From contig NZ_CP084029.1 in NCBI RefSeq assembly GCF_020181615.1, positions 1,227,043 through 1,291,042 on the forward strand: a stretch of 64,000 bases of DNA, read 5' to 3'. Below the pieces are notes generated by a model that was not told the origin of the DNA, searched no databases, and saw only the letters and a program-made list of their open reading frames with translations. This document shows, in pieces, positions 14,161-58,654 of the stretch. This DNA is from [Mycobacterium] crassicus. Lineage in GTDB: Bacteria > Actinomycetota > Actinomycetes > Mycobacteriales > Mycobacteriaceae. Positions within the stretch are counted from its first letter, which is position 1, and each line of letters starts with the position of its first letter. The position numbers were made by a program, and so were the translations under genes.

Positions 14161-14172
14161 ACCACCGCGCTG

Positions 14173-17858: not shown

Positions 17859-17861
17859 CCT
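17856..17861 (+). promoter_or_regulatory. Predicted leaderless -10 box of the ketosteroid-isomerase-like gene
   Basis: TAACCT, overlapping the stop of the preceding gene, lies 7 nt before ATG 17869. It supports that start over longer in-frame readings. Confidence 0.45.
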
Positions 17862-17868
17862 GCGGCAC

Positions 17869-18252: not shown

Positions 18253-18268
18253 GCCGGGTCGATACGGC

Positions 18269-18979: not shown

Positions 18980-19036
18980 GGGCCCTTCCCCACGCGGATT
19001 CGCGGACTGATTCGCGGCAACTTCTCTCGATCACAG

Positions 19037-19042
19037 TAGTCT
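19037..19042 (+). promoter_or_regulatory. Predicted leaderless -10 box of the Z-prenyl synthase gene
   Basis: TAGTCT lies 8 nt before GTG 19051, with no Shine-Dalgarno sequence. Confidence 0.45.
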
Positions 19043-19050
19043 GGGTTTTT

Positions 19051-19848: not shown

Positions 19849-19854
19849 CCGGCC

Positions 19855-21222: not shown

Positions 21223-21332
21223 CCTGCGGCTGGCAGTGCTTGGCAGCGCTACGGCTCGATGTGGCAGTGGTCTGTGAGCAGGTTCGAAGGTGTTCGTAGA
21301 CGACTCCGAAGAACCTTGAAGGGAGCTTGATC

Positions 21333-21740: not shown

Positions 21741-21779
21741 TTGAGGGTCACTGAGCGCGTCGCCCCAGCCGCCACCATC

Positions 21780-21785
21780 TACAGT
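21780..21785 (+). promoter_or_regulatory. Predicted leaderless -10 box of the DUF732 gene
   Basis: TACAGT lies 7 nt before ATG 21793, with the T-rich spacer TTTTCCC and no Shine-Dalgarno sequence. Confidence 0.5.
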
Positions 21786-21792
21786 TTTTCCC

Positions 21793-22350: not shown

Positions 22351-22361
22351 ACGAAGCTGCC

Positions 22362-40162: not shown

Positions 40163-40186
40163 GGTAGCGGCGGAAAAGCCTATTCT
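40163..40186 (+). promoter_or_regulatory. Promoter of cyclase-STAND gene 1
   Basis: GGTAG (40163) - 5 nt - GAAAAG (40173) - 2 nt - TATTCT -10 box (40181-40186). The same elements with identical spacing occur before gene 2. The shared GATCGGCGGCGTCGGGATGA block follows, ending at the start codon. Confidence 0.6.
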
Positions 40187-40224
40187 TTGCCGATCGGATA
40201 GGTTCGCTGATCGGCGGCGTCGGG

Positions 40225-43200
40225 ATGACGGTAACGATATGTCGGGCGTGCGGCACCGAACCACTGGAGAATGCGCGATTCTGCCACTCCTGTGGCTCGC
40301 CGATCACTGCGGCCATCCGACCGGCCGAATACAAGCAGGCGACGGTGTTGTTCGCCGACGTGGTGCACTCGATGGACATCGCCGCGGCGGTCGGCGCCGA
40401 ACGGCTGCGCGAGATCATGACCGAGCTGTTCAACCGGTGTGTGGCCATAGTGCGGCGTTATGGCGGCACGATGGACAAGTTCACCGGCGACGGGGTGATG
40501 GCGGTGTTCGGTGCGCCGGTGTCGTTGGAGGACCATGCGTTTCGGGCCTGTCTGGCGGCCCTGGAGATCCAGCGTGAGAGCATCGCTGCCGCCGGTGGTG
40601 GTCTGCAACTCCGAGTCGGCCTGAACTCCGGCGAGGTGGTCGCGGGGGAGATCGGAGCCGGGCCGGGCAGCTACACGACGATCGGTGCTCAGGTCGGGCT
40701 GGCACAACGGATGGAGTCGGTGGCGCCGCCGGGCGGGGTGATGCTCAGCGAAGCGACCGCGCGACTGGTTGAGGGCCGGGTGGTGCTGGCCGCACCGGAA
40801 CTGGTGTGCATCAAGGGTGCCGTCGAGCCCGTGCCGGCTCGTCGGTTACTTTGTGCCGAGGACCACGACGGGGCCCGCGGGCGGGCGGACGCGAGCCTGG
40901 TCGGCCGCCGCTGGGAACTGGCCGCCGTGACGGCGATCCTGGAGCGGGCCGTCGATGGCCACGGTGGTGTCGTCGGCGTTGTGGCACCACCCGGCATCGG
41001 CAAGAGCCGACTGGTGCGCGAGATCTCCGCGGTGGCGACCGAACGGGGTATCCCGGTGTACTCCAGCTTTTGTGAGTCCCACGCCAGCGACATCCCGTTT
41101 CATGTGGTGGAGACGCTGCTGCGCACCGCCACCGGGGTGGCCGATCTCGACCCCGGCGCGGCACGGGCACAGGTTCGGGCCCGGGTTCCCGGCGCCGACG
41201 CCCAGGATCTGCTGCTGTTCGACGATCTGATCGGCATTGCCGATCCCGACGTGGAGCTGCCCCGCGTCGACCCCGACGCGCGACGGCGACGGTTGACTGC
41301 GTTGGTCAATGCGGCCACGTTGGCCCGGACGACTCCGGTGGTATATGTCATCGAGGACGCGCACTGGATCGACGAGGTCAGTGAGTCCATGCTGGCCGAC
41401 TTCATGGCGGTGATCCCGCAAACCCGGTCCCTGGTGGTGATCACCTATCGGCCCGAGTATCACGGCGGGTTGACGCGTATCGCCGGTTCTCACACGATTA
41501 CCCTTGCGCCGCTGAGCGATTCGGAATCAACGGCCCTGATCTACCAATTGCTGGGCGCTGACCCGTCGGTGGCGGCGCTGTCCGGACAGGTTATGGACAG
41601 GGCGGCCGGTAATCCGTTCTTCGCCCAGGAGATGGTGCGCGATCTGGCTGAACGCGGTGTGCTGCACGGCAAGCGAGGGGGATATCTGCTTGCCGGCGCG
41701 ACCGATCAGGTGAGCGTTCCGGCCACCCTGCAGGCCACCATCGCCGCCCGTATCGACCGACTGGAGCCGGCCGCCAAGCGCACGCTGTGTGCCGCCGCGG
41801 TGATCGGGTCACGGTTCAGTACGGAGCTTTTGACGGCCCTGGACATCACCCCGACGTTCACCGAGTTGATGGCGGCCGAGTTGGTCGATCAGGTCCGGTT
41901 CACCCCGTACCCGGAGTACGCCTTCCACCACCCGTTGATCCGCGCGGTGGCCTATGAATCGCAGCTCAAATCCGATCGCGCAGCGCTGCATCGGCGGCTG
42001 GCCGCGGCCATCGAATCGCGCGATCCCGCAGCGGCCGAGGCGAATGCCTCGCTGATCGGCGAGCACTTGGAAGCCGCGGGGGAGTTGCGGGCTGCCTATG
42101 CCTGGCACATGCGTGCCGGAGCCTGGTCGACCAACCGTAATATCGCTGCGGCTCAGGTGAGTTGGGAACGCGCCCGACAGGTCGCCGATGCGTTGCCCGA
42201 AGGCGATCCGGATCGGCCGGCGATGCGGATCGCCCCGCGCACGCTGATCTGTGCCCACGGATTCCGGGCGAATATCACGATCGCCGGAGAAAGGTTCGAT
42301 GAACTGCGGGGGCTGTGTGCGGCCGCCGGTGACAAGACGTCGTTAGCGGTCGCGATGACCGGGCTGATCGCCGAGCACATGTTTCACGGCCGGGTGTTGG
42401 CGGCATCAAGGCAGGCCTCCGAACAGCGGACGCGGATCGAGTCGATCGGCGACCCGACACTGACAGTCGGGCTGTCTTTCGGACTGAGCGGAAGCAAGAT
42501 CAGCACCGGGGAGGCGGGGGAAGTGCTGCAGTGGTCGCAATACGTGATCGACCTCGCCGACGGCGACCCTCGGAAAGGGAATCTCATTGTCGGGTCCCCG
42601 CTGGCCCTGGCCTTGGCTGCCAGGGGCTTCGCCCGGAGCACGCTGGGGCGTACCGGATGGCGAGAGGACTTCAGTCGGGCGACCGCCATGGCTGGTAGCA
42701 CCGACCCGCTGTCGTACGCCATCTGTGTGGCTTGGACATACGGCATCGCGATCGCGGCGGGAGTGCTATTACCTGATCGCCACATAGTCCAGGCAATCGA
42801 AGACGCGGTGCGCATCGCCGAGCGGTCGGCCGACGATATTTCCGTTGGCTTCGCCATGTACGCATTGGGCGTGGCCAAGCTGCACCAGGATCCACCGGCG
42901 GATGAGCGCGCTGTGGAGTTGTTCGGACGAATCCGCGACATGTGTGTGCGCGGTCGGTTCTATTCATCGGAGATTGCCTCGATCGATGACTGGATCACGG
43001 TTGCAATGGTCAGGCGGGGGGCTCTCGATCGTGCGGTGGCCGTGGCACGGAATGCCCTGGACCAACAATATGGTTCGGGTCAGCTGGGCTATTGCGTGCT
43101 CGGTACGCGGATTCTGGCCGAGATGCTGTTGGATCGCGGTCGCAGCGATGACCTGACGGAGGCCCAGACGATCATCGACCGGCTGGCCGCGGCTCCGCTG

Positions 43201-43368: not shown

Positions 43369-43445
43369 GGGCGAATTCATTACTCGCGGTATCACTGACG
43401 CGGTCGCTGCCGCCGCCACTGTGACGATTACGTAACAAATGCTCA

Positions 43446-43469
43446 GGTAGTAACCGAAAAGAATATTCT
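43446..43469 (+). promoter_or_regulatory. Promoter of the five-gene operon (genes 2-6)
   Basis: GGTAG (43446) - 5 nt - GAAAAG (43456) - 2 nt - TATTCT (43464-43469), the same geometry as at 40163. This is a duplicated promoter driving genes 2 to 6. Confidence 0.6.
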
Positions 43470-43508
43470 TGGCCGAACGCTTGAGTTTCACGGATCGGCG
43501 GCGTCGGG

Positions 43509-46500
43509 ATGAGCACGTCAACTGCGTGCCGTAAGTGCGGCACGGACCTACTCGCGAACGCGCAGTATTGCCACTCCTGCGGTTCGCCGGTCACAGTTGC
43601 CACAACACCGGCCGAGTTCAAACAGGTGACAGTGTTGTTCGCCGACGTGGTGCATTCGATGGACATCGCCGCGGCGGTGGGGGCCGAGCGGTTGCGCGAG
43701 ATCATGGCGCAGTTGTTCGACCGCTGCGCGGCGGTGGTGCGGCGTTACGGCGGAACGGTGGACAAGTTCACCGGTGACGGGATCATGGCGGTGTTCGGTG
43801 CGCCCGTGGCGCTGGAGGATCACGCGTTTCGGGCGTGTTTGGCGGCGTTGGAGATTCAGGCGGCCGAGGACGTTGCGCTGCAGCTGAGAGTCGGGCTGAA
43901 CTCCGGTGAAGTGGTTGCCGGCGAGATCGGGCTCGGACCGGGTAGCTACACGGCGATCGGTGAGCAGGTCGGGATGGCGCAGCGGATGGAGTCGGTGGCG
44001 CCACCGGGCGGGGTGATGCTCAGCGAATCGACGGCCCGATTGATCGAGGACGTGGCCGTCCTGGCCGAGCCGGAGCTGGTGTGCATCAAGGGCGTCGTCG
44101 AACCGGTCCGGGTGCGCCGACTGCTGGGGGTGGCGAATCAGCATCGGCGGGGCAGGCGAACCGAACCGACGCTGGTGGGGCGCACCTGGGAGTTGAACAC
44201 CATCGCCGGGATTCTCGATGAGGCGATCGGTGGGGCCGGGTGCGTGGTCAGCGCGGTAGGTCCGCCGGGTATCGGTAAGAGCCGCATCGTTCGGGAATCG
44301 GCCGCGGTAGCCGAACGGCGGAGTGTGGAGGTGTTCACCACCCACTGTGAATCGCATACCAGCGACATCCCTTTCCACGCGGTGGTGGGGTTGCTGCGAG
44401 CCGGACTGGGCGTAGAAGGCCTCGGGCATCAGGCGGCCCGGACCCGGGTCCGTGGCCGCGTCGCCGGCGCTGACCCCGAAGACCTGGTGCTGCTGGATGA
44501 CCTGTTGGGTATTGCCGATCCCGACGTCAAGCCGCCCGACGTCGAAGCCGATGCCCGGCGGCGGCGGTTGACGGCGTTGGTCAATGCCGTATCGGTAGCC
44601 CGGGAAACACCGGCGTTGTATGTGATCGAAGATGCCCACTGGATCGATGAGGTCAGCGAATCGATGCTGGCCGATTTTCTGGCGGTGATCCGACAGACCC
44701 ATTCGATGGTGCTGATCACGTATCGCCCTGAGTATCGCGGCGCGCTGGCCACCATCCGCGGGGCGCAGACGATCGTGCTGCGACCGTTGAACACCGCGCA
44801 AGCCGCGACGCTGATCGGGGAGCTACTGGGCAGCGATTCCTCGGTACGCGGGCTGACGCAGCTCATCGCCGAACGTGCATCGGGAAACCCATTTTTCGCC
44901 GAAGAGATCGTGCGCGACTTGGCCGAGCGCGGCATCATCCGCGGCACTCGCGGCTCGTACGTACTGACCGGTCATGTCGCCGACGTGGGGGTGCCGGCAA
45001 CCCTGCAGTCCGCGATCGCCGCCCGCGTCGACCGACTCAGTCCTTCGGCCAAGCGAACGTTGAGCGCCGCGGCCGTCGTCGGGACACGATTCAACCCCGA
45101 TCTGCTGACCGCACTGGGGATCGCGCCGATACTCGATGAGTTGGTCAAGGCCGAGCTGGTCGATCAGGTCGGGTTCACCTCGCGCCCCGAGTACGCCTTC
45201 CGGCACCCGTTGATCCGCTCGGTGGCCTACGACTCCCAGCTGAGATCCGATCGTGCCGAGCTGCACCAGCGGGTGGCCGCCGCGATCGAACACAGCGACC
45301 CGGAGTCGGCGGACGAGAACGCCGCCCTGATCGCCGAACACCTCGAAGCGGCAGGCGATCTCCACGCAGCATGTGACTGGCACATGCGCGCCGGTACGTG
45401 GCTGACCCATCGGAACACGATCGCGGCACGGGCCAGCTGGCAGCGTGCGCGCGACGTTGCCGACCGATTGCCCGACTCAGACCCATATCGCACCGCACTG
45501 CGGATCTCGCCGCGGACGCTGCTGTGCGCCACATCGTGGCTTGCCGGTGGCAGTATGGCCGACACCGGGTTTGACGAACTGCGCGACCTGGCCGGTGCCG
45601 CCGACGACAAGGTGTCGCTGGCCATCGGGATGGCGGGGTGGCTGCCGGCGTTGATCGTGCACGCCCGATTCCGGGAAGCATCGCAGTTGGCTTCCGAGCT
45701 CACCAGCCTGCTCGAATCGATCGGCGATCCGACGTTGACCCTCGGACTGCTCTACAGTGCGCTCGCCGCCAAGTTCCAGCGAGCCGAGATGACCGAAGTC
45801 GTGCGGCTGGCGCAACGGATGATCGACTTGGCCGACGGCGATGCCACCAAGGGCAATCTGGTAGTCGACTCACCGTTGGCATGCGCGATCATGTTGCGGG
45901 GATGCGCACGATGTTGCCTCGGCGACCACGGCTGGCGAGACGACATCGAACAGGCCACGACGATGCTCCTGGCATTCCAACCGTCGTTCCGCGCGGTGGT
46001 ACTGCTGTTCAAATACACCCTTGTCGGTGGCGGCGTGTGGCTGCCGGATGCTGCCGCCCTGCAGGAGACGGCTGAGGTGCTCGAGCTCGCGGAGCGATCC
46101 GGCGACGATCTCCCTCTCGCTTCCGCCCGGAACGTGCGCGGCCTCGCACTGCTGACCCAGGAAGGTCCCAGCCGGGAAGCGGGCTTGGCCCTGCTTGGTG
46201 CGGCCCGTGAAGCCGCTGTGCAAGAACGCTTCACGATGATCGCTGCCTTTTACGCCGACAATGCCTTCGCCGAGGAGAAGGCCCGAGACGGCGACCTCGG
46301 CGGCGCGATCGAACTGTCGCGAATCGTCCTCAACGAGCTGTTCGCCTCCGGTGATGTACTCGGGCTTGGGCAGGCCACTGCTGTTCTGGGCGAGTTCCTG
46401 CTGCTCAGAGGTACAGACGCCGACGTGCGGGAAGCGGAGGCGGCCATCGCCCGGCTGGTGGCCGTGCCGACCGAGCCGGGGTTCGTCGTGCACGACATCT

Positions 46501-46640
46501 GGCTGCTGCGGCTGCGGGCGCTGCTGGCCCAGGCGAACGGAGATGCGAACGGCTACCGGGATCTGGTCGCCGGCTACCGGAAGATGGCTACTGATCTCGG
46601 TTTTGAACGGCACATCGCACAAGCGCAGGCGATGACATGA
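43509..46640 (+). CDS. Zinc ribbon-cyclase-STAND ATPase protein, array gene 2
   Basis: A 1043-aa paralogue of gene 1. Zinc ribbon Cys7/Cys10/Cys21/Cys24. Cyclase domain: Asp46 and Asp90 metal ligands and Lys86 kept; substrate Asp replaced by Glu152, transition-state Asn by Gly155, Arg159 kept. Walker A GPPGIGKS (251-258); Walker B LYVIEDAHW. TPR-like C-terminal half ending in the family tail (GYRDLVAGYRKMA). First gene of the operon; its TGA overlaps the next ATG (ATGA). The N-terminus is closest to gene 1, including the CHSCGSP ribbon. Confidence 0.85.
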   Translation: MSTSTACRKCGTDLLANAQYCHSCGSPVTVATTPAEFKQVTVLFADVVHSMDIAAAVGAERLREIMAQLFDRCAAVVRRYGGTVDKFTGDGIMAVFGAPVALEDHAFRACLAALEIQAAEDVALQLRVGLNSGEVVAGEIGLGPGSYTAIGEQVGMAQRMESVAPPGGVMLSESTARLIEDVAVLAEPELVCIKGVVEPVRVRRLLGVANQHRRGRRTEPTLVGRTWELNTIAGILDEAIGGAGCVVSAVGPPGIGKSRIVRESAAVAERRSVEVFTTHCESHTSDIPFHAVVGLLRAGLGVEGLGHQAARTRVRGRVAGADPEDLVLLDDLLGIADPDVKPPDVEADARRRRLTALVNAVSVARETPALYVIEDAHWIDEVSESMLADFLAVIRQTHSMVLITYRPEYRGALATIRGAQTIVLRPLNTAQAATLIGELLGSDSSVRGLTQLIAERASGNPFFAEEIVRDLAERGIIRGTRGSYVLTGHVADVGVPATLQSAIAARVDRLSPSAKRTLSAAAVVGTRFNPDLLTALGIAPILDELVKAELVDQVGFTSRPEYAFRHPLIRSVAYDSQLRSDRAELHQRVAAAIEHSDPESADENAALIAEHLEAAGDLHAACDWHMRAGTWLTHRNTIAARASWQRARDVADRLPDSDPYRTALRISPRTLLCATSWLAGGSMADTGFDELRDLAGAADDKVSLAIGMAGWLPALIVHARFREASQLASELTSLLESIGDPTLTLGLLYSALAAKFQRAEMTEVVRLAQRMIDLADGDATKGNLVVDSPLACAIMLRGCARCCLGDHGWRDDIEQATTMLLAFQPSFRAVVLLFKYTLVGGGVWLPDAAALQETAEVLELAERSGDDLPLASARNVRGLALLTQEGPSREAGLALLGAAREAAVQERFTMIAAFYADNAFAEEKARDGDLGGAIELSRIVLNELFASGDVLGLGQATAVLGEFLLLRGTDADVREAEAAIARLVAVPTEPGFVVHDIWLLRLRALLAQANGDANGYRDLVAGYRKMATDLGFERHIAQAQAMT

Positions 46641-49600
46641 CCGCCTGCGTCGCATGCGCCACCGAACTGCCGGCCAATGCCAAGTTCTGTCTCGAGTGTG
46701 GCGCGGCTGTCGCGGCGGCCGCACCTGCTGAGTTCAAGCAGGTGACAGTGTTGTTCGCCGACGTGGTGCATTCGATGGACCTCGCCGCGGCAGTGGGTGC
46801 GGAGCGGTTGCGCGAGATCATGGTCGAGCTCTTCCAGCGTTGCGCCGCCGTGGTGCAACGCTACGGCGGAACCGTGGACAAGTTCACCGGCGACGGCGTC
46901 ATGGCCGTGTTCGGTGCGCCGGTGGCGTTGGAGGACCACGCCTTTCGCGCCTGCTTGGCGGCGATGGATATCCAAGGAACTGAAGAGCGTGCACTGCAGC
47001 TGCGGGTCGGGTTGGACTCAGGTGAGGTGGTCGCCGGCGAGATCGGTTCCGGGCCGGGCAGTTACACCGCGATCGGTGAGCACGTGGGTATGGCGCAGCG
47101 GATGGAGTCGGTCGCTCCGCCGGGTGGGGTGATGCTCAGCGAATCGACCGCCCGCTTGGTTGACGACGTCGTGACGCTGGGCGAGCCGGAGTTGGTGCAG
47201 ATCAAGGGGGCCGCCGAGCCGGTGGTGACCCGTCGGCTGCTGGGGGTGCCGTCGGGCCATCAACAGGCCGGGCGACGAGACGCGTCGTTGGTGGGCCGCG
47301 GCTGGGAGATGGCGGCGTTGACCGGCATGCTGGATGCGGCGATCGATGGCAGCGGCCGTGTGGTCGGCATCGTCGGACCGCCCGGTATCGGCAAGAGCCG
47401 CATTGTCCGAGAGGCCACCGCTGTCGCGGCAGGCCGTGCCGTCGAGGTGTTCACCGCCTACTGTGAGTCGCACGCCAGCGAGATCCCGTTCCATGCGGTG
47501 ACACCCTTGCTGCGAATGGCATTGCGGGTGGCCGACCTTGACGACGACGGGGCACGTGCACGAATCAGGGAACGCGTACCCGATGCCGATCCGCAAGACC
47601 TACTGCTGCTTGACGATCTGCTCGGCATTCGAGACAGCAGCGTCGAACTGCCCGACATCGATCCCGATGCCCGGCACCGGCGGCTGACTCGTCTCGCGAA
47701 CACGGTCTCGCTGGCCCGGCGGACGCCGGCCGTGTACGTCATTGAGGACGCGCATTGGATCGATGAGGCCAGCGAGTCGCTGCTGGCAGGCTTTCTCACG
47801 GTGATCTGGCAAACCCCGTCGTTGGTGTTGGTCACCTACCGGCCGGAGTATCACGGCGCGCTGACCCGTATACCGAACTCGCAGATGGTCACCCTGGCCC
47901 CATTGAATGCTGCGCAGGCATCCGTCTTGGCCGGTGAACTGGTCGGTTCGCATCCCTCGGTTGCCCACCTGGCCGCCCAGGTCGTCGAGCGGGCGGCCGG
48001 CAATCCGTTCTTCGCAGAGGAGTTGGTGCGTGATCTGGCTGAACGTGGTGTGCTGGCCGGTGACCGTGGCAACTATGTATGCGACGTTGAAGGCGCCGAG
48101 GCGAGCGTGCCCGCCACCTTGCAGGCCACCATCGCAGCCCGCATCGACCGGCTCGGTGCCGCAGCAAAGCACACGCTGAACACCGCCGCCGTTATCGGGT
48201 TGCGTTTCAGCGCAGAGCAGTTGGCATTTTTCGATGGCGAGTCTGCGATGGCTGAGTTGATCGAGGCTGAACTCATCGATCAGGTGCGGTTCACCCCGGA
48301 CATCGAATATGCCTTCCACCACCCGCTGATCCGCACGGTGGCCTACGAATCGCAGCTGAAATCCAGCCGCGCCCGCCTGCATCGGCGTCTGGCCGCCGCA
48401 ATAGTGCAGCGTCACCCGGATTCGCTGGATGAGAACGCGGCGCTGATCGCCGAGCATCACGAGGCCGCCGGGGACCTGCATGCTGCCTTCGACTGGCACA
48501 TGCGCGCCGGGACATGGGCGCAATACCGCGATGTCAGGGCCGCGAGAGTCAGTTGGGAACGTGCCCGATCGGTCGCCGACCGGATGGCGGTCGACGACCC
48601 GGGCCGGATGTCGATGCGGATTGCCCCGCGCACCCTGCTGTGCGGGAGCACATTTCGCGTCAGCGGCACGATTGCCGCCACCGGGTTCGACGAGCTGTGT
48701 GAGCTGTGTGCCGACGCCGGCGACAAAGTGTCACTGGCGATCGGCACGGCAGGGCTGATGACAGCACTGATATTCCACAGCCGGTTCCGGGAAGCCGCGC
48801 GTCTCGCGTCGGACTGCGCCGATCTGGTTGAGGCGATCGGCGACCCGACGCTGACCGTAGCGCTTGGTATCGCGGCGAGCAACGGGAAGTGGCATGCGGG
48901 TGAGGTGGTCGAGAGTTTGCGCTTGGCGCAGCGGGTCATCGACCTGGCCGACGGCGATCCCACCAAGGGCAATCTGGTTGTCGGGTCGCCGTTGGCGCTG
49001 GCGATGGCGCTGCGAGGCGCCAATCGATGTTGCCTCGGCATCCCGGGTTGGAGGGAAGATCTCGATCAGGCCATCGTGACGGCTCGCACCGTCGTCGACG
49101 CGATGTCCTACGTCTTCACCGTACTGATGAGGTACTTCTTCCCCATCTGGAGCGGTGCGTTGCTGCCGGATGCGGCAGCTGACCGCGACACCGCCGAAGC
49201 AATCGAGATCGCCGAGCATTCCGGCGACGACTTCGTGGTGGATTACGCCCGTTTGAGTCGCATCGCGGCCTTCGCCGAGGAGGACGGCTCGCACCACGCA
49301 ACGGTGCTCGCGCTGCTCGCCGAGGGACGTGACGCAAGCCTGCGACACGGATACGCGCAGAAAGCTGTGCGGTTCATCGACGGCGGACTTGCGAGAGAGA
49401 AAGCCAAGGCAGGAGATGTCGATGGCGCGATCCAGCTGGCGCGCACGGCCGTCGAATACCTGTCCGACGTCGGCGAAATGATGAGCTACGGAGCGGACAC
49501 CGTCGTCTTGGTGGAGTCCCTGCTGCAGCGTGGTACGAACGGCGACCTCGCGGAGGCGCAGGCAGCTATCGACCGCCTGGCAGCGGTGCCGACCGACCCC

Positions 49601-49762
49601 GGGTTCGTGTTGTACGAGATCCCGTTGCTGCGGCTGCGGGCGCTGATGGCGCGCGCGAGCGGCGACGAGGACGGCTATCACGGCTTCGTCGATCGGTACC
49701 TCAAGAGAGCCACCGAGGTCGGCTACGAAGGCCACATCGCACAAGCGCGGGCGATGACATGA
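46637..49762 (+). CDS. Zinc ribbon-cyclase-STAND ATPase protein, array gene 3
   Basis: A 1041-aa paralogue. Zinc ribbon Cys4/Cys7/Cys18/Cys21 in the ACVACATEL...FCLECG form shared with genes 4 and 5. Cyclase domain: Asp42, Lys82, Asp86 kept; substrate Asp is Glu148, Asn is Gly151, Arg155 kept. STAND ATPase with GPPGIGKS and VYVIEDAHW. Helical repeat C-terminus, no HTH. Overlaps both neighbours by 4 nt (ATGA at each end). The DNA around its start (about 46614-46672) is almost identical to that around the start of gene 4 (49736-49794), the mark of a unit duplication. Confidence 0.85.
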   Translation: MTACVACATELPANAKFCLECGAAVAAAAPAEFKQVTVLFADVVHSMDLAAAVGAERLREIMVELFQRCAAVVQRYGGTVDKFTGDGVMAVFGAPVALEDHAFRACLAAMDIQGTEERALQLRVGLDSGEVVAGEIGSGPGSYTAIGEHVGMAQRMESVAPPGGVMLSESTARLVDDVVTLGEPELVQIKGAAEPVVTRRLLGVPSGHQQAGRRDASLVGRGWEMAALTGMLDAAIDGSGRVVGIVGPPGIGKSRIVREATAVAAGRAVEVFTAYCESHASEIPFHAVTPLLRMALRVADLDDDGARARIRERVPDADPQDLLLLDDLLGIRDSSVELPDIDPDARHRRLTRLANTVSLARRTPAVYVIEDAHWIDEASESLLAGFLTVIWQTPSLVLVTYRPEYHGALTRIPNSQMVTLAPLNAAQASVLAGELVGSHPSVAHLAAQVVERAAGNPFFAEELVRDLAERGVLAGDRGNYVCDVEGAEASVPATLQATIAARIDRLGAAAKHTLNTAAVIGLRFSAEQLAFFDGESAMAELIEAELIDQVRFTPDIEYAFHHPLIRTVAYESQLKSSRARLHRRLAAAIVQRHPDSLDENAALIAEHHEAAGDLHAAFDWHMRAGTWAQYRDVRAARVSWERARSVADRMAVDDPGRMSMRIAPRTLLCGSTFRVSGTIAATGFDELCELCADAGDKVSLAIGTAGLMTALIFHSRFREAARLASDCADLVEAIGDPTLTVALGIAASNGKWHAGEVVESLRLAQRVIDLADGDPTKGNLVVGSPLALAMALRGANRCCLGIPGWREDLDQAIVTARTVVDAMSYVFTVLMRYFFPIWSGALLPDAAADRDTAEAIEIAEHSGDDFVVDYARLSRIAAFAEEDGSHHATVLALLAEGRDASLRHGYAQKAVRFIDGGLAREKAKAGDVDGAIQLARTAVEYLSDVGEMMSYGADTVVLVESLLQRGTNGDLAEAQAAIDRLAAVPTDPGFVLYEIPLLRLRALMARASGDEDGYHGFVDRYLKRATEVGYEGHIAQARAMT

Positions 49763-52700
49763 CCGCCTGCGTCGCCTGCGCCACCGAACTGCAGGCCAAT
49801 GCCAAGTTCTGCTTCGAGTGCGGTGCGTCCGTTGCGGCGGCCGCACCGGCTGAATTCAAGCAGGTGACGGTGTTGTTCGCCGACGTGGTGCATTCGATGG
49901 ACATCGCCGCGGCGGTGGGCCCGGAGCGGTTGCGCGAGATCATGGGCGCGCTCTTCGACCTCTGTGCGGCCGTGGTGCAGCGGTTTGGCGGGCGGGTGGA
50001 GAAGTTCATCGGTGACGCCGTTATGGCGGTGTTCGGTGCGCCGGTGTCGTTGGAGGACCATGCTTTTCGGGCTTGCCTGGCGGCGTTGGAGATCCAGCGT
50101 GTGAACGCCGCGACCGGCGACGGCGGCCTGCAACTGCGGGTTGGCCTGAACTCGGGCCAGGTGGTTGCGGGTGAGATCGGTTCGGGGCCAGGCAGCTATA
50201 CCGCGATCGGCGAGCAGGTTGGTCTCGCGCAGCGGATGGAGTCGGTTGCGCCAGTAGGTGGGGTTCTGCTCAGCGATTCGACGGCACGCCTGGTCGGGGG
50301 CTGGGTGGTATTGGCCGATCCGGAGTGGGTGCGGATCAAGGGTGTGGCAGAACCGGTGCGGGTGCATCGATTGTTAGGGGCGTCGCCGGAGAGTCGGCAT
50401 ACCGCTCGACAGGATCCGTCGTTGGTGGGCCGCGGCTGGGAAATGGGCGCACTGACCGGGATCCTGGAGCGGGCGATCAGTGGTACTGGCTGCGTGATCG
50501 GTGTGGTGGGGCCACCCGGAATAGGTAAGAGCCGCATTGCTCGCGAGGTCAGCGGCGTCGCGCAGGGCCGGGGTGTGGCGGTGTTCGCCGCCTACTGCGA
50601 GTCGCACGCCGTCGAAGTCCCGTTCCATGCGGTGACCTCACTGCTTGCCACCGCGCTCAGCATCAGCGGGCTCGGTGACGAAGCGGCACGCGCGCGAATC
50701 AGGGACCGTGCGCCGGACGCCGATCCCCAGGATCTGCTCCTGCTCGACGATCTACTCGGTATTCGGGGCGACAGCGTTGAGCTGGCCGCGATCGATCCCG
50801 ATGCCCGGCGCCGCCGGCTGACGCGGCTGGTCAATAACCTGTCGCTGGCTCGGCAGGAGCCGGTCGTCTACGTCATCGAGGACGTCCACTGGATCGATGA
50901 GGTCAGCGAATTGCTGCTGGCGGATTTTCTCGCCGTGATTCCGCAGACTGCATCGCTGGTGGTGATCACCTACCGACCTGAATACCACGGTGTATTGACC
51001 CGGATTCCGAACTCGCAGACCATCACGCTGGCGCCGTTGAATGCGTCGCAGTCCGCGACGCTGGCAACCGAACTGCTCGGCTCGCACCCGTCGGTGTCGA
51101 CGTTGTGCCAGCGGGTCGTCGAGCGTGCGGCCGGAAATCCGTTCTTCGCCGAGGAGATCGTCCGGGATCTCGCCGATCGCGGTGTGCTCAGCGGGTCTCG
51201 CGGTGGCTATGTCTGCGAGATCGATGATGCCGACGTCGCGGTGCCGGCAACGTTGCAAGCTGCTATCGCCTCCCGTATCGATCGGCTTGAACCGGCCGCC
51301 AAACAGACGCTGAATGCCGCTGCGGTGATCGGACTGCGTTTCGACGCAGAGCAATTGGCGGTGCTCGACGGCGGTGCGCAGGTGGATGGGTTGATCGCTG
51401 CAGAACTCGTGGAGCAGGTGCGGTTCACCCCTCACCCGGAGTACACCTTCCGGCATCCACTGGTCCGGATCGTCGCCTACGAATCACAACTCAGGGCGCA
51501 GCGTGCCAACCTGCACCGGCGCTTTGCCACCGCGATCGAACAACGCCACGCCGACGCGATCGATGAGAATGCGGCGTTGATCGCTGAGCATCTCGAGTCC
51601 GCTGGCGACCTGCCCGCGGCGTACAGCTGGCGCATGCGGGCCGGGGCCTGGGCGCAGCATCGCGACATCAGGGCCGCGCGGGTCAGTTGGGATCGCGCCC
51701 GCGCAATCGCTGACCAGTTGCCCACCGACCACCCCGGTCGGGAGTCGCAGCGGATCGCCCCGCGCACCCTGTTGTGTGCGAGCACCAGCTGGGTCGGTGG
51801 CAGCGTCGCCGATGCCGGCTTTGACGAGTTGCACGAACTGTGCACCGACGTCGACGACAAGCTGTCGCTGGCGGTTGGGATGGCCGGCCTGATGACGGCG
51901 CTGATCTTTCACAGCCGATATGTCGAGGCGTCACGCATCGCGTCGGACTGCAGCCGGCTGCTGGAGCTGATCGGCGATCCGACGATGACGGTTGCGCTTG
52001 CCATCGCGCCGTGCAACATCAAGTTGCAGGCCGGCGAAGCGGCCGAAAGTCTGCGCCTGGCGCAGCTGGTCATCGACCTGGCCGACGGCGACCCGGCGAA
52101 GGGCAATCTGGTGATCGGCTCGCCACTGGCGATTGCGATCATGTTCCGCGGCTCCAGTCGATATTGCCTTGGGCTCCCGGGCTGGAAGGAAGACCTCGAT
52201 CAGGCGTTGGTGATGGCCCGCGGTGTCGACTCCAGGACCTTTGTCACGGTCGTGCTGGGCAAGTACGGCCTCGCCCTCTACGCCCGAGTGGTGTTGTCCG
52301 ACGCGGCGGCCGACCGCGACACCGCTCAGGCGTTGGAGATGGCCGAGCAGGCCGGCGACGACTACGCGGTGGATACCGCACGACTGGCTCGTGGGATCGT
52401 TCTGCTCAACCAGGGCGGGTCCCAACGTGAAGCCGGCTTCGCCCTGCTGACTCAGTACCGTGACGCCTACCTGCGGCACGGCTATGCACAACGGGCAGTG
52501 CGATTTTTCGAGGCCGAGCTCGCGCGGGAGAAGGCCCGCATCGGCGAGATCGACGAAGCTGTCGAGCTGGCCCGCACTGCCGTCGACTACCTGTTCGAGA
52601 CGGGCGACATGATGGCCCGCGGCGAGACCACCAGAATTTTGGTGGAAGCACTGCTGCAGCGCGGCAACGATATTGACCGCACGGAGGCGCGGGGCGCCAT

Positions 52701-52893
52701 CGACCGATTGGCGGCGGTGCCCACCGATGCCGGCTACGCGCTGTTCGACATCCCGCTACTCCGGATGCGGGCGCTGCTGGCACTCGCGAACGGCGACGAG
52801 CTGGGCTACCGCGACTTCGCAGACCGCTACCGCACAAAGGCCAACGAACTCGGCTACGAAGGGCACATCGCGTTGGCGGAGGCGATGAGGTGA
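49759..52893 (+). CDS. Zinc ribbon-cyclase-STAND ATPase protein, array gene 4
   Basis: A 1044-aa paralogue. Zinc ribbon Cys4/Cys7/Cys18/Cys21. Cyclase domain: Asp42, Lys82 (in EKFIGDAVMA, unlike DKFTGDG of genes 1-3), Asp86; substrate Asp is Glu152, Asn is Gly155, Arg159 kept. STAND ATPase GPPGIGKS and VYVIEDVHW. Helical repeat C-terminus. ATGA overlap with gene 3 and GTGA overlap with gene 5. The EKFIGDA variant groups genes 4 and 5 together. Confidence 0.85.
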   Translation: MTACVACATELQANAKFCFECGASVAAAAPAEFKQVTVLFADVVHSMDIAAAVGPERLREIMGALFDLCAAVVQRFGGRVEKFIGDAVMAVFGAPVSLEDHAFRACLAALEIQRVNAATGDGGLQLRVGLNSGQVVAGEIGSGPGSYTAIGEQVGLAQRMESVAPVGGVLLSDSTARLVGGWVVLADPEWVRIKGVAEPVRVHRLLGASPESRHTARQDPSLVGRGWEMGALTGILERAISGTGCVIGVVGPPGIGKSRIAREVSGVAQGRGVAVFAAYCESHAVEVPFHAVTSLLATALSISGLGDEAARARIRDRAPDADPQDLLLLDDLLGIRGDSVELAAIDPDARRRRLTRLVNNLSLARQEPVVYVIEDVHWIDEVSELLLADFLAVIPQTASLVVITYRPEYHGVLTRIPNSQTITLAPLNASQSATLATELLGSHPSVSTLCQRVVERAAGNPFFAEEIVRDLADRGVLSGSRGGYVCEIDDADVAVPATLQAAIASRIDRLEPAAKQTLNAAAVIGLRFDAEQLAVLDGGAQVDGLIAAELVEQVRFTPHPEYTFRHPLVRIVAYESQLRAQRANLHRRFATAIEQRHADAIDENAALIAEHLESAGDLPAAYSWRMRAGAWAQHRDIRAARVSWDRARAIADQLPTDHPGRESQRIAPRTLLCASTSWVGGSVADAGFDELHELCTDVDDKLSLAVGMAGLMTALIFHSRYVEASRIASDCSRLLELIGDPTMTVALAIAPCNIKLQAGEAAESLRLAQLVIDLADGDPAKGNLVIGSPLAIAIMFRGSSRYCLGLPGWKEDLDQALVMARGVDSRTFVTVVLGKYGLALYARVVLSDAAADRDTAQALEMAEQAGDDYAVDTARLARGIVLLNQGGSQREAGFALLTQYRDAYLRHGYAQRAVRFFEAELAREKARIGEIDEAVELARTAVDYLFETGDMMARGETTRILVEALLQRGNDIDRTEARGAIDRLAAVPTDAGYALFDIPLLRMRALLALANGDELGYRDFADRYRTKANELGYEGHIALAEAMR

Positions 52894-55800
52894 CCGCCTG
52901 CGTCGGGTGCGCCACCGAATTGCAGGCCAATGCCAAGTTCTGCTTCGAGTGCGGGGCGCCGGTTGCGGCGGCTGCACCGGCCGAGTTCAAACAGGTGACG
53001 GTGTTGTTCGCCGACGTGGTGCATTCGATGGACCTCGCTGCGGCGGTCGGTGCGGAGCGGTTGCGCGAGATCATGGGCGCGCTCTTCGGCCGCTGTGCTG
53101 CGGTGGTGCGGCGCTACGACGGGGTGGTCGAGAAGTTCATCGGCGATGCCGTCATGGCCGTGTTCGGTGTACCGGTGGCATTGGAGGACCACGCGTTACG
53201 GGCATGCCTGGCGGCACTGGACATCCAGCAGCAGGCGCAACAGCTGGCGGCTGAAGTGGCTCGCGCCGACGGCGTCAGCCTGGAGCTTCGGGTGGGGCTG
53301 AACTCCGGCCAGGTGGTCGCCGGTGACCTCGGATCCGATCCGTTGAGCTACACCGCGATCGGCGAGCAGGTCGGGTTGGCGCAGCGAATGGAGTCGGTGG
53401 CGCCGCCGGGCGGGGTGGTGCTCAGCCAATCGACCGTCCGCTTGGTCGAAGACGTCGCCGTACTGGACGAGCCGGTGGCAGTCCAGTTCAAGGGTGCCGG
53501 CGCCCAGGTGTCCGTGTGTCGACTTCTGGCGGTGTCGCCGGAGCGCCGGCATGTCCCGAGGCAGGATTCGACACTGGTGGGGCGGTCCTGGGAGATGGCT
53601 GCGCTCAAGGGAATCCTGGATGAGTCGATCGCCGGGACCGGTTGCGTGGTAGGTGTGGCCGGACCTCCCGGCATCGGCAAGAGCCGGATCGTCCGTGAGG
53701 TCGCCTCGCTGGCACGGAGCCGCGGCATCGAGTTATTCGCCGCCTACTGCGAGTCCCACGCGCGCGAGATCCCGTTCTACACGGCGAATTCGCTGCTGCG
53801 CAACGCACTCGGGATAGACAAACTCGACGACGAGTCGGCACGTGCCCGAATAGAGGAACACGCGCCGGATGCCGATGCTGCGGATCTGCTACTGCTCGAG
53901 GATCTGCTCGGCGTTCGCGAGAGCGGCATCGAGTTGCCCGCGATCGACCCCGACGCCCGACGACGCCGGGTTACGCGGTTGGTCAACGCCATGTCGCTGG
54001 CGCGCACAACTCCGGCGGTCTATATCATCGAGGACGCGCATTGGATCGACGAGGTCAGCGACGTGTTGCTGGCAGATCTACTCCTTGTGACGCGGCAAAC
54101 CCCCTCGATGGTGCTGATCACCTACCGGCCCGAATATCACGGGGCGCTGACCAGGACGGTCAGTTCGCAGGCGATCACGCTCGAGCCTCTGAACGCGTCG
54201 CAGACGGCCATGCTCGCTGCCGAACTGATCGGTCCAGACCCGTCGACGGCGGGGCTGTGCAGGCGGGTCGTAGAGCGGGCAGCCGGGAATCCGCTGTTCG
54301 CCGAGGAGATGGTGCGAGACCTGGCCGAGCGCGCGGTGCTGACCGGATCACGTGGCCGATATGTGTGCGCGGTCGATGATGCCGAGCTCGTGGTGCCGGC
54401 AACGGTGCAGGCCACCATTGCCTCGCGCATCGACCGACTCGACCCGATGGTCAAACGGACTCTGCAAGCCGCTGCGGTGATCGGGTTGCGGTTCGACTCC
54501 GAGCAGTTGGCCTTGCTCGACGACATGGCGCAGATCGAGCCACTGCTGGAGGCGGAACTCATTGATCAGGTGCGACTCGCCCCGCATGCCGAGTACGCGT
54601 TTCATCACCCGCTGGTCCGGATCGTGGCGTATGAATCACAGTTGAAGTCGCAGCGCGCCATGCTGCATAGGCGCCTTGCCACCGCGATAGAGCAACACCA
54701 CCCGGGTGCGCTCGATGAGAACGCAGCGATGATCGCCGAGCATCTTGAGGCGGCCGAGGACCTACCCGCCGCGTTCGGCTGGCACATGCGTGCCGGGGCC
54801 TGGGCGCAGGATCTTGACATCCGTGCCGCGCGCGTCAGCTGGGATTGCGCCCGTGCGGTGGCCGACCGATTGCCGATGAACGATCCTGACCGCCTACCGA
54901 TGCGGATCGCCCCACGAACCCTGTTGTGCGGCAGTGCTTGGCGAGTGGGAGGAAGTTCTTCCGACACTGGCTTCGACGAACTGCGCGAGCTGTGCACGGC
55001 TTCTGGTGACCAGGTGTCTCTGGCTGTCGGGATGGCCGGCCTGCTGACCGCCATGGCATTCAACTCCCACTATCAGGAAGTGCCGCAGCTGACTGCGCAA
55101 CTGGTCGACTTGCTCGACACCATCGGTGACCCTGATCTTTCGGTCGGACTGCTGTTCGCTGCGCTCTGGGCAAAGCTGGAACCCGGCGATGCGCTGGAGG
55201 GTTTGCAACTGGCGCAGCGACTGATCGACCTGGCCGAGGGCGATCCGGAGAAGGGCAACCTGCTACTCGGCTCACCTCTGACTGCCGCGATAGCCGTTCG
55301 GGGCGTTTTCGGAATGCTGCGTGGCTGTCCGGGCTGGGGCGACGACCTCGACGAGGCCATCGAGATGGCCCGTGCGTGTGACCCCACCACTCGTGCCGTC
55401 ACGGTGATGTTCCAATGCCTGTTGATCCCGCAAGGCGCGATCCTGCCCGATGCCACGATGAGCAACAGCGCGGACCTACTGGAAGTGGCGGAGCAGTCCG
55501 GTGATGAATTCGCCTTGGCCGCCGCCCGTCTCGCCCGGGGAATTGCCCTTACCTACCAACCTGATTCAGATCGGGAGCGGGGTGTGGAAATGCTGACACT
55601 GGCTCGGGAAGCCGCATTGAAGCAACGATTCATCGCCAGCCTCGCGCAGGTTGCCGACACTCAGATCGCCCTGCAGATGGCGCAAACGGGTGATCTCGAT
55701 GGTGCGATCGGGCTGTTACGCAAGGTGGTTCGGACACTGTTCGAAAGCGGTGTCGTCATCTGGTACGTACCGGCGGCCATCCGGTTGGTGCAGATGCTGC

Positions 55801-56039
55801 TTGAGCGCGACTCCACCGAAGACCGGCAGGAGGCCGAAGCTGTACTCGATGGCTTCGCGAATGCGGTGAACGTGGCTGAATTAGGCCTTTATGAAGCCTG
55901 GTTGCTGCACGGCCGTGCGTTGCTGGCGCGGGCGCAGGGTGACGGCGCTGCGCACCGGCAATACGTCGAACAGTATCGGACGAAGGCGAAGATGTGCGGC
56001 TACGCCGGACATCTGGTGATGGCGGAGGCGATGATGTGA
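52890..56039 (+). CDS. Zinc ribbon-cyclase-STAND ATPase protein, array gene 5
   Basis: A 1049-aa paralogue starting on GTG. Zinc ribbon Cys4/Cys7/Cys18/Cys21. Cyclase domain: Asp42, Lys82, Asp86; a longer Gln/Ala-rich insertion (QQQAQQLAAEVARADG, about 113-128) before the LELRVGL strand; substrate Asp is Glu159, Asn is Gly162, Arg166 kept; the usual GPGSY loop is SDPLSY. STAND ATPase GPPGIGKS and VYIIEDAHW. Helical repeat C-terminus. Its TGA overlaps the GTG of the LuxR gene, so regulator and cyclase protein should be made in step. Confidence 0.85.
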   Translation: MTACVGCATELQANAKFCFECGAPVAAAAPAEFKQVTVLFADVVHSMDLAAAVGAERLREIMGALFGRCAAVVRRYDGVVEKFIGDAVMAVFGVPVALEDHALRACLAALDIQQQAQQLAAEVARADGVSLELRVGLNSGQVVAGDLGSDPLSYTAIGEQVGLAQRMESVAPPGGVVLSQSTVRLVEDVAVLDEPVAVQFKGAGAQVSVCRLLAVSPERRHVPRQDSTLVGRSWEMAALKGILDESIAGTGCVVGVAGPPGIGKSRIVREVASLARSRGIELFAAYCESHAREIPFYTANSLLRNALGIDKLDDESARARIEEHAPDADAADLLLLEDLLGVRESGIELPAIDPDARRRRVTRLVNAMSLARTTPAVYIIEDAHWIDEVSDVLLADLLLVTRQTPSMVLITYRPEYHGALTRTVSSQAITLEPLNASQTAMLAAELIGPDPSTAGLCRRVVERAAGNPLFAEEMVRDLAERAVLTGSRGRYVCAVDDAELVVPATVQATIASRIDRLDPMVKRTLQAAAVIGLRFDSEQLALLDDMAQIEPLLEAELIDQVRLAPHAEYAFHHPLVRIVAYESQLKSQRAMLHRRLATAIEQHHPGALDENAAMIAEHLEAAEDLPAAFGWHMRAGAWAQDLDIRAARVSWDCARAVADRLPMNDPDRLPMRIAPRTLLCGSAWRVGGSSSDTGFDELRELCTASGDQVSLAVGMAGLLTAMAFNSHYQEVPQLTAQLVDLLDTIGDPDLSVGLLFAALWAKLEPGDALEGLQLAQRLIDLAEGDPEKGNLLLGSPLTAAIAVRGVFGMLRGCPGWGDDLDEAIEMARACDPTTRAVTVMFQCLLIPQGAILPDATMSNSADLLEVAEQSGDEFALAAARLARGIALTYQPDSDRERGVEMLTLAREAALKQRFIASLAQVADTQIALQMAQTGDLDGAIGLLRKVVRTLFESGVVIWYVPAAIRLVQMLLERDSTEDRQEAEAVLDGFANAVNVAELGLYEAWLLHGRALLARAQGDGAAHRQYVEQYRTKAKMCGYAGHLVMAEAMM

Positions 56040-58654
56040 GCGAAATGAGTTTGCCGTGGCCCCTGATCGGACGATCCGAGGAGATGCAAAAGATCCAAGC
56101 GGCCCTTTCGGCTTCGGATGTTTCCGGGGCCGTTGTTTGGGGCGCGGAGGGGGTGGGGAAGAGCCGGATCACCCGTGACATGTTGTCGATCGTCATGTCG
56201 CAGGGCACCGAAGTGCGGTGGGCGGTGTGTACCTCCGCGGCGCGGAGTGTTCCACTCGGTGCCTTCGCGGCATGGGCGCCGTCGGGAGTCACCCAGACGG
56301 TAGCTCTGGTGCGAGGGGTGATTGAGACGCTGACGGCCGCACCCTCGGGCGCCACGGTGGTGGGCGTCGACGATGTGCATCTGATCGATGACCTGTCCGC
56401 GTTCGTTGTGCATCAGATCGTGCAACGGGGTCTGGCGAAGGTGATTTTCACTGTTCGGGAAGGCGAATCGATTCCGGCGGCAGTGCACGAGATCTGGGAG
56501 GCCGGTCGGTTCGAACGGCTCGACCTGCAGCCGCTGTCACTCGAGCAGCTCACCGGCCTGCTGTCGGCATCTTTGGGTGCCCCGGTGGATCCGGATGCGG
56601 CACAGCGGCTGTGGAAGCTCACTCGTGGCAACGTCTTATACCTTCGCAACATCGTTGAGCACGAGATTGCCGATGGCCGAATGGTGCAACAGCAGGGCTG
56701 CTGGCGTTGGGTCGGGGATCCGATCATCCCGCCCAGCCTCGCCGGGCTCATCGAGTCCCGCATCGGGTCGTTACCCGGGCCGGTCAGTGATGTGATCGAC
56801 GTGCTGGCGGTCGGGGAACCGATCGCCCTGGCCGCCCTGACCCGGATCACCGATGCGGCCGCGGTCGAAGAGGCCGATGTGCGCGGACTTATCACGGTGG
56901 AGGCGGGTCCCGGCGGCGTTCAGGTGCGGGTCGCGCATCCGCTCTACGGCGAGGTGCGCCGCAGCCGTGCGGCGGCCACCCGGCTGCGGCGGTTGCGTGG
57001 ACTGGTCGCCGCCGAACTCGCCGCAGCCGATGATCGAGACGATGTCCAGGTGGTGGTGCGGCGCGCTGCACTGAGCCTTGATTCCGACCTCACCCCCGAT
57101 GTCGACCTGCTGGTCAGGGCCGCCCATGGTGCTGTCTGGCTGGCGGATCTGGCACTCGCCGAACGGGCTGCCGCAGAGGCGATCCGTGCCGGTGGCGGCC
57201 CAGAGCCGAGCTTCGTCCGGGCGCACGCACTGTCGTGGTCGGGGCGCGGTGAGGAGGCCGACGATGTGCTCGCCGCGATCGACATCAGCGACCTGACGGA
57301 CGGTGACCGTGCCAGGTTGGCGTTTCTGCGGGCCAGCAACGTGCTCTGGGCGCTGGGCGAGCCGGCCCGGGCGAAGGAGATCATCGACGAGGCGTCCGGC
57401 GCGGTGGCGTCGCAGGCCCGCAACTACATCGACGCCTTCCTGACGGTGTACTGGTTCGCCGTGGATCGGCCGGATGCGGCCAGGCAGGCCGCCGAAAAGC
57501 TCGACCTGGACGAGTTGCCCGCGGTGGTGGGCGCTGAGATCGCGTGGGTACTGGCCGCCATTGCTGCCGATGCGGGGCGCACCGCCGAAGCCGTTGCCAC
57601 CGCCGAGGCCGGGTACCGCGTCGTCGCCCGTTCCCTGGAGGCCCCCCACATGGGCTTCAACATCGCCGACGCGCACGTCGGCGCCCTGCTGATGGCCGGA
57701 CGGGTGAACGACGCCGGCGAAACGGCCGAGCGGGTCAGTCGGCAGGCGGCAGACCTGCCCGGTGCGGCCCAGTCACTCGGGGCTGCCGTGGCAGGCTTGG
57801 CGGCCCTCGGCGCCGGGCGCCTCGACACCGCGTGCGGGCTGCTGGAGCAGGCGGAAGCGGGGTTGTCCGCCAGCCATGCCATCGGTTGGGGATACCGCTA
57901 CCTCGTCCCGAGTATCACGGCGCGGGCCATGCGCGGTGCCGTCGATGCGGCTGCCGCCGCGCTCGACGCGCTCGACCGCCTGCGACGTCCGTTCCGGTTG
58001 CTCGATTACGACCGGAGTCTGGCCCGGGCGTGGGTGGCCGCCGGCCAGGGTGCCGTCAGTGAGGCAATTGCCGTTGTCAGCGAAGCAGCCGAGACAGCCG
58101 CGGCCCGAGGGCAATTCGCGGCCGAAGTGGTCTGCCTGCAGACCGCCGCCCAGTTCGGGGATCGCACCGGAGCGGCCAGGTTGCGCGAGCTGGAAGCCCT
58201 TGTCGAGGGACCCCGCGTCGGTGTGGCCGCCCGGTTCGCCGCCGCACTCCGCGAGGGTGATGGCGCGGAGTTGGTCTCGGTTTCAGAGGATTTCGAGCGC
58301 ATCGGTGACCTCGTCGCCGCTGTCGATTCCAGCGCCCAGGCCGCGCTGACCTTTCGTCGTCAGGGCTTGCGAGGAACAGCGCTGGGATGCGCGGCACGCG
58401 CCTCGGCGCTGGCCGAACAATGCGGAGGCGCTGACACGCCGGCGCTTCGCCAAGCCGCGGAGCCCTTACCGCTGACCGATCGGGAGTCCGAGATCGTGAT
58501 GCTGATCGGGGAGGGGTTGTCGAACCGGGCCGTCGCTGAGCGCCTGGCTCTTTCGGTCCGCACCGTTGAGAGTCATATCTACCGGGCCATGCTGAAGACC
58601 GGGACCTCCAGGCGTGACGAACTCGCCGCCCTGCGGCCTCGGCGCCGGACGTGA
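56036..58654 (+). CDS. LAL-type LuxR-family regulator with STAND ATPase
   Basis: An 872-aa transcription factor. An N-terminal STAND ATPase domain (Walker A GAEGVGKS, 36-43; Walker B-like VVGVDDVHLID) is followed by helical repeats and a C-terminal LuxR-type HTH (about 815-865) with PLTDRESEIVMLIGEG and the recognition helix region RTVESHIYRAM. It has no zinc ribbon and no cyclase domain, unlike the five genes before it. GTG 56036 overlaps the gene 5 stop; GGCGGAGGCG lies upstream. Last gene of the operon. Inference: it is the DNA-binding output of the module, possibly binding the CAGTAGTG inverted repeats that begin 11 nt after its stop. Confidence 0.88.
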   Translation: MSEMSLPWPLIGRSEEMQKIQAALSASDVSGAVVWGAEGVGKSRITRDMLSIVMSQGTEVRWAVCTSAARSVPLGAFAAWAPSGVTQTVALVRGVIETLTAAPSGATVVGVDDVHLIDDLSAFVVHQIVQRGLAKVIFTVREGESIPAAVHEIWEAGRFERLDLQPLSLEQLTGLLSASLGAPVDPDAAQRLWKLTRGNVLYLRNIVEHEIADGRMVQQQGCWRWVGDPIIPPSLAGLIESRIGSLPGPVSDVIDVLAVGEPIALAALTRITDAAAVEEADVRGLITVEAGPGGVQVRVAHPLYGEVRRSRAAATRLRRLRGLVAAELAAADDRDDVQVVVRRAALSLDSDLTPDVDLLVRAAHGAVWLADLALAERAAAEAIRAGGGPEPSFVRAHALSWSGRGEEADDVLAAIDISDLTDGDRARLAFLRASNVLWALGEPARAKEIIDEASGAVASQARNYIDAFLTVYWFAVDRPDAARQAAEKLDLDELPAVVGAEIAWVLAAIAADAGRTAEAVATAEAGYRVVARSLEAPHMGFNIADAHVGALLMAGRVNDAGETAERVSRQAADLPGAAQSLGAAVAGLAALGAGRLDTACGLLEQAEAGLSASHAIGWGYRYLVPSITARAMRGAVDAAAAALDALDRLRRPFRLLDYDRSLARAWVAAGQGAVSEAIAVVSEAAETAAARGQFAAEVVCLQTAAQFGDRTGAARLRELEALVEGPRVGVAARFAAALREGDGAELVSVSEDFERIGDLVAAVDSSAQAALTFRRQGLRGTALGCAARASALAEQCGGADTPALRQAAEPLPLTDRESEIVMLIGEGLSNRAVAERLALSVRTVESHIYRAMLKTGTSRRDELAALRPRRRT

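Follow-up and report, generated by a model that had tools for sequence, protein, structure and literature searches.

Introduction

Three kinds of described protein stand closest to the locus presented here: the mclx proteins of Mycobacterium tuberculosis, the MalT/LAL regulators (LAL, large ATP-binding regulators of the LuxR family), and the mycobacterial proteins annotated as 'adenylate/guanylate cyclase domain-containing', which join a class III cyclase domain (CHD) to a signal transduction ATPase with numerous domains (STAND). The neighbouring M. tuberculosis genes Rv0891c and Rv0890c, one coding for a cyclase domain and the other for a STAND protein of the LuxR type, are a further point of reference. 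Among the MalT/LAL regulators, IniR is described, in passages of PMC5760070, as a MalT-like STAND regulator linked to trehalose. Here we describe a row of six co-directional open reading frames (ORFs) in a 64,000-nucleotide stretch of the [Mycobacterium] crassicus genome (contig NZ_CP084029.1), hereafter the window, in which five CHD-STAND genes (genes 1-5) are followed by a LuxR gene (gene 6). Among the papers listed in literature searches, by title and abstract opening, no account of such an array was found, nor any role assigned to mycobacterial CHD-STAND proteins.

In the reading that we favour, to which we give a probability of roughly 0.45, the locus is a probable operon that encodes STAND receptors of the MalT/NLR type (NLR, nucleotide-binding leucine-rich repeat receptor) together with a MalT-like LuxR regulator, receptors and regulator making up one regulon. 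The comparisons presented below indicate that this is a genuine and unusually long CHD-STAND array, drawn from three subfamilies.

Domain architecture and organization of the array

The array spans window positions 40225-58654 (Table 1), with an ORF of 886 residues for gene 6. Each of genes 1-5 encodes a zinc-ribbon-like start, a CHD, a STAND ATPase and an arm resembling tetratricopeptide repeats (TPR). Guanylate_cyc and AAA_16 score over the Pfam cut-off in 5/5 and no helix-turn-helix (HTH) was found in them with Pfam, which bears out a first-pass annotation, made from the letters alone, of a six-gene array with five cyclase-STAND paralogues of ~1045 residues lacking a DNA-binding domain. The zinc ribbon it had also proposed stands on less even ground, as the Pfam match remains below the cut-off, although each of its four Cys is conserved, in 121, 121, 121 and 122 of 124 relatives. 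Gene 6 was described there as a STAND ATPase with a LuxR HTH and no cyclase domain, and this agrees with our results: GerE scores 41.2 bits (cut-off 23.5), AAA_16 reaches 29.7 bits, under its cut-off of 32.6, and no CHD was found with Pfam, while the N-terminal ATPase, helical arm and C-terminal LuxR HTH fit the LAL/MalT type, the fold being backed by the predicted structure and Foldseek. A P-loop ATPase with Walker A and B, a winged-helix region and a helical arm are present in all six proteins, as judged from Pfam and alignment for genes 1-5, from predicted structure for gene 4, and from predicted structure and Foldseek for gene 6. Across the aligned members the N-terminal platform is conserved and the arms differ. 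Genes 1-5 score 233-256 bits with TIGR03903 (TOMM kinase/cyclase fusion), below the curated cut-off of 705.75.

It had also been proposed that input and output were split from a fused CHD-ATPase-HTH protein. This candidate, a split Rv1358/mclx-type protein, we reject: no HTH was found among the relatives of the gene 4 ATPase part that were listed (120 of 8000 scored, these being the candidates sharing most words, all past E 1e-10), and between gene 4 and gene 6 the identity of the ATPase parts is only 24% (25% in a profile comparison). Since the listed relatives carry no HTH, the comparison identifies genes 1-5 as ordinary members of an HTH-less CHD-STAND family. By match positions, no CHD and GerE matches were found in one open frame of the host genome. 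This genome of 4.87 Mb holds five CHD-STAND family proteins and one match to gene 6 (both at E 1e-60), with ten GerE domains. The nearest named relatives come from Mycolicibacter sp. MYC017 for gene 1 (90%) and, among LuxR proteins, from [Mycobacterium] nativiensis for gene 6 (86%). Against the nearest orthologue, the ratio of nonsynonymous to synonymous substitution rates (dN/dS) per domain is 0.13-0.45 in genes 1, 2, 4 and 5, and no positive selection is seen in their arms, where the ratio stays well under 1; the frame of gene 3 is open.

Concerning the junctions, overlaps of 4 nt are seen between genes 2 and 3 (ATGA), 3 and 4 (ATGA) and 4 and 5 (GTGA), and the overlap reported between genes 5 and 6 (GTGA) holds if gene 6 starts at GTG 56036, residue 15 of an ORF that opens at 55994. 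The database copy of gene 6 (P0125, 869 residues) begins at an alternative start, ATG 56045. At another locus (L142) the 4-nt overlap at the LuxR start is identical to the window junction, and GTG 56036 is most likely the start. Because of these overlaps, genes 2-6 are likely co-transcribed. Genes 1 and 2 are separated by 140 bp.

A conserved leader

Genes 1 and 2 are each preceded by a copy of a conserved leader, the second lying inside the 140-bp gap. It consists of TATTCTT, then roughly CCGATCGG and GATCGGCGGCG ahead of the ATG, single bases varying. Using a looser pattern wherever the first found none, 17 copies (15 distinct) were located over all 14 Mycolicibacter-type loci, two of them in the window. 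Genome-wide, the strict pattern (at most 3 mismatches) picks up the copy before gene 1 alone, because copy 2 is one base longer. The TATTCT of the leader is in keeping with a mycobacterial -10 box; the leader may act as a promoter, as an operator or at the RNA level. A hairpin scan gave 7/7 pairs in 5 of the 15 distinct leaders versus 2.8% of shuffled spacers (mean 6.3 versus 5.1), the position of the best 5' arm varying.

Table 1. Features of the array, in window coordinates.
Feature	Positions	Strand	Remarks
Leader copy 1	40181..40227	+	Ends with ATG of gene 1, inclusive
Gene 1, CHD-STAND protein	40225..43368	+	1047 aa, P0001; subfamily of its own
Leader copy 2	43464..43511	+	In 140-bp gap; ends with ATG of gene 2, inclusive
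Gene 2, CHD-STAND protein	43509..46640	+	1043 aa, P0002; third subfamily
Gene 3, CHD-STAND protein	46637..49762	+	1041 aa, P0003; LuxR-linked clade
Gene 4, CHD-STAND protein	49759..52893	+	1044 aa, P0004; LuxR-linked clade; predicted structure
Gene 5, CHD-STAND protein	52890..56039	+	1049 aa, P0005; LuxR-linked clade
Gene 6, LAL/MalT-type LuxR regulator	56036..58654	+	P0006 from residue 15

As to the surroundings, gene 1 is immediately preceded, also on the plus strand, by a gene for a small Rv2632c-like protein (PF08962; 39849-40127). Downstream of the array a PF02458 'Transferase' family protein (E 1.4e-24) adjoins a cytochrome P450 (59859-61163 and 61170-62528, both on the minus strand).

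Subfamilies, mosaics and turnover of the CHD-STAND genes

The family phylogeny was obtained with FastTree from 124 distinct members in a mixed sample, composed of the best-scoring 77 cyclase-anchored loci of 248 relatives and of 60 loci picked by their LuxR gene. The underlying alignment holds 84 rows from the former, 35 from the latter and the five window genes, after removal of rows that had fewer than 900 residues aligned or fell short of 40% identity with gene 4, and after duplicate rows had been collapsed (from 132 to 124). The tree label 'LuxR-linked' stands for a distance below 8 kb, so that genes 1 and 2 of the window are coded as not linked.

Genes 3-5 fall in one clade of 16 rows (support 100), with a LuxR gene at most 6.3 kb from every row but L088. 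Gene 2 clusters with a single gene of genome G325 and one from a metagenome-assembled genome (L100), and gene 1 with genes of G308, G166 and G197. These three clades speak against a simple fivefold amplification of one gene, and with it against the earlier proposal of an amplified input part. The label requires 8 changes on the tree, LuxR-linked cyclase genes belonging mainly to two clades. The second of these, of 23 rows, is mostly convergent to the LuxR gene (L161, L164, L165, L166, L169-L174, L176 and related loci).

Compared segment by segment, relatives turn out to be composites of pieces that match different array members. In L124_6108 and L128 the ATPase region goes with gene 5 and the arm with gene 4, the swapped placings being rejected (p 2.8e-92, 2e-5). 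The ATPase region of L085_6885 goes with relatives of gene 5 and its arm with gene 3 (p 0.005, 1e-6; CHD p 0.015), and for the arm of L124_9266 the gene 2 group is rejected (p 1.9e-10). A remnant in G166 (L118) fuses 31 initial gene-2-like residues to a gene-4-like arm, followed by a frame change; besides this scar, G166, the closest relative found, has gene 1 and the LuxR gene at the locus. Remnants are seen at other loci too: in L142 all that is left of the cyclase gene is an in-frame stub of 94 residues (13559-13843) overlapping the start of LuxR, L121 retains the leader and a 38-residue zinc-ribbon ORF (from 8683), L153 the leader and ~20 similar residues that pass out of frame (from 13709), with the LuxR ORF broken, and L122 shows a 26-residue stub ahead of a full cyclase gene. 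Taken together, the alignments indicate that CHD-STAND arrays change by recombination and deletion.

Over the 14 Mycolicibacter-type loci, full-length cyclase genes directly upstream of LuxR number five in the window, two in four loci, one in six and none in three. These last three (L142, L121 and L153) keep the leader, and the LuxR gene is broken in one of them. Leader and LuxR gene look like the steadier unit, the putative receptors, which relatives gain, lose and recombine, being the part that changes. In the search for arrays in other genomes recommended earlier, LuxR-linked cyclase loci recur; the other tight runs seen mostly comprise one to three genes, the longest being of three (Mycobacterium fragae, L079). 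At that locus (9941-23130) three CHD-STAND genes in a row are followed by a LAL-type gene 36% identical to gene 6, possibly an independent array. The CHD-STAND family is present, at E 1e-250, in 61 of 88 genus genomes; G070 and G082 carry at least 9 such genes each, mostly scattered, four of those in G070 lying within ~20 kb.

The locus may, further, be a receptor cluster with NLR-like birth-and-death evolution, in which ATPase and arm segments are swapped within arrays and new sensor sets feed one conserved MalT-like factor under one leader. We consider this unlikely. If true, domain-swapped bacterial receptor arrays would be a simple model for the diversification of STAND/NLR receptor clusters.

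The LuxR neighbourhood

LuxR orthologues, searched at E 1e-220, are present in 145 of 396 genus genomes, and 60 loci were chosen by hand among the better-scoring matches. A cyclase neighbour, counted as any cyclase gene or fragment with 80 residues or more and 40% identity or more, was found in the fetched flank of 42 of these. The 18 misses are probably over-counted, since 15 had at most 3.5 kb downstream and since in one, L153 (G085), a convergent cyclase gene lies 2.3 kb off, under the 40% line. Grouping loci with at least 2.5 kb of flanking ORFs in common gave 17 settings, 13 of them with a cyclase neighbour, a count in which one group makes up 27 of 61 loci, short contigs may form settings of their own and kinship is uncorrected. 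With strict clustering of the flanking ORFs no other family occurs in more than 14/61 loci; looser clustering linked ORFs of the cyclase region with others in a single group, which had members outside LUX/CYC in 39 loci and which strict clustering broke up. Plain synteny is thus an unlikely cause of the proximity, given the strict clustering and the settings, and the lasting neighbourhood of cyclase-STAND and LuxR genes presumed in the first-pass annotation is supported.

Seen from the cyclase side, the picture differs. A gene-6-like gene occurs in 9 of the 77 cyclase-anchored loci (6 at 70% identity or more, 3 at 36-37%), a GerE domain in 10, and any LuxR-type gene in 11, with none in the fetched flanks of the other 66, some on short contigs; among loci with full flanks GerE is found in 7/39. 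In 88 genomes, cyclase and LuxR occur together in 32, cyclase only in 29, LuxR only in 3 and neither in 24 (Fisher p 0.0003; hand-compiled, kinship uncorrected), so that the gene 6 LuxR lacks an orthologue in 29 of the 61 genomes that carry the cyclase family (cut-offs E 1e-220 for LuxR, E 1e-250 for cyclase). The earlier annotation had itself named cyclase genes routinely lacking a nearby LuxR gene as the finding that would count against it, and to a large extent this is what we observe. Overall, the genomic distribution points to a LuxR partnership that is real but one-sided.

This one-sidedness would fit co-regulation only, where the LuxR protein controls, or is merely co-transcribed with, the cyclase genes and the CHD-STAND proteins act alone. 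Persistence of leader and LuxR gene where the cyclase gene decayed agrees with it, but the proximity across settings does not, and the concentration of linked cyclase genes in two clades suggests partner-specific lineages; we regard it as a possible but rather unlikely explanation. A closer tie, in which the five CHD-STAND proteins are sensors that join the single LuxR output protein in mixed STAND oligomers or signal to it directly, would fit the cyclase neighbourhood of LuxR orthologues, their co-occurrence with the cyclase family and the varying arms on conserved platforms. It appears distinctly unlikely, however, given that most cyclase-anchored loci have no LuxR neighbour, that the ATPase parts of the two kinds of protein are so dissimilar, that three loci keep a LuxR gene, broken in one, beside a mere cyclase stub, and that the closest relative found shows, besides the LuxR gene, just gene 1 and a scar.

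Cyclase residues and catalysis

All 124 aligned members have both metal Asp and the Arg of the transition state, and the position of the transition-state Asn, checked against CyaB (3r5g), is Gly in 124/124. In the column of the base-recognition Lys, 81 members have Lys, 19 a gap (18 of these rows LuxR-linked) and 17 Gln, and the base-recognition Thr is found in 95; all five window genes keep both residues. ATP binding by the CHD is therefore plausible in terms of residues, while catalysis is doubtful because of the Gly at the Asn position in every aligned member, and cAMP (cyclic AMP) production should not be assumed from the annotation. Passages of PMC4452763 report Mclx2 and Mclx3, too, as lacking the transition-state Asn. 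That genes 1-5 encode functional adenylate cyclases, which would raise cAMP and signal through cAMP receptors and not through LuxR, would agree with the invariant metal and Arg positions and with the Lys and Thr of the window genes, but the missing Asn and the altered Lys column make it very improbable. Least probable of all, and scarcely to be expected, is an NLR-like anti-phage or conflict system with diversifying arms that recognise invaders: Foldseek matches the gene 4 model to Avs3, Apaf-1, CED-4 and plant NLRs, receptors turn over and swap domains, and PADLOC models of the Pycsar cyclase PycC match the genes, though in the CHD only, but no known effector domain was found in the six proteins or, by Pfam, in the neighbouring genes scanned, the arm dN/dS lies well under 1 and a DNA-binding partner suggests gene regulation.

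A proposed receptor and regulator regulon

We return to the favoured reading, one regulon of STAND receptors and a MalT-like regulator. Each product of genes 1-5 would be held inactive with ADP, and a ligand on the TPR/MalT-III-like arm would allow ADP to be exchanged for ATP and the proteins to assemble via their ATPase domains. Assembly may bring the CHDs together, and these could then serve as a signalling module that binds ATP or is weakly catalytic. The LuxR protein would itself be a ligand-gated STAND activator that controls, presumably by binding it, the shared leader, and probably other targets too, so that receptors and regulator would form one regulon.

Several observations weigh against this reading. 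Around LuxR orthologues the arrangement seen most often is convergent, not an operon, and LuxR-type genes are missing from the fetched flanks of most cyclase-anchored loci. A scan for sigma-70-like promoters found none at the leader; it gave 1 site, elsewhere in the region, where 2.1 were expected. The predicted structure of gene 4 is poor over the CHD. The mosaic tests were picked after the trees were seen, and for the CHD of L124_9266 (p 0.17) and L124_6108 (p 0.094) the non-mosaic placing is not rejected. It should be noted that, even so, a LuxR neighbour that lasts over many lineages provides a concrete candidate output for the common mycobacterial CHD-STAND proteins.

Comparison with known systems

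The mclx proteins (Rv0386, Rv1358 and Rv2488c) have the CHD and AAA/NB-ARC domains in common with genes 1-5, but carry a C-terminal LuxR HTH in the same chain, whereas CHD and HTH share a chain in 0/6 of the array proteins. MalT/LAL regulators, the mycobacterial IniR included, display the ATPase, helical arm and C-terminal LuxR HTH of gene 6, which differs from them in being encoded with CHD-STAND genes. The mycobacterial HTH-less CHD-STAND proteins match genes 1-5 in architecture and length; their genes stand mostly one to three in a row at the loci seen, whereas the window has five beside a LuxR gene.
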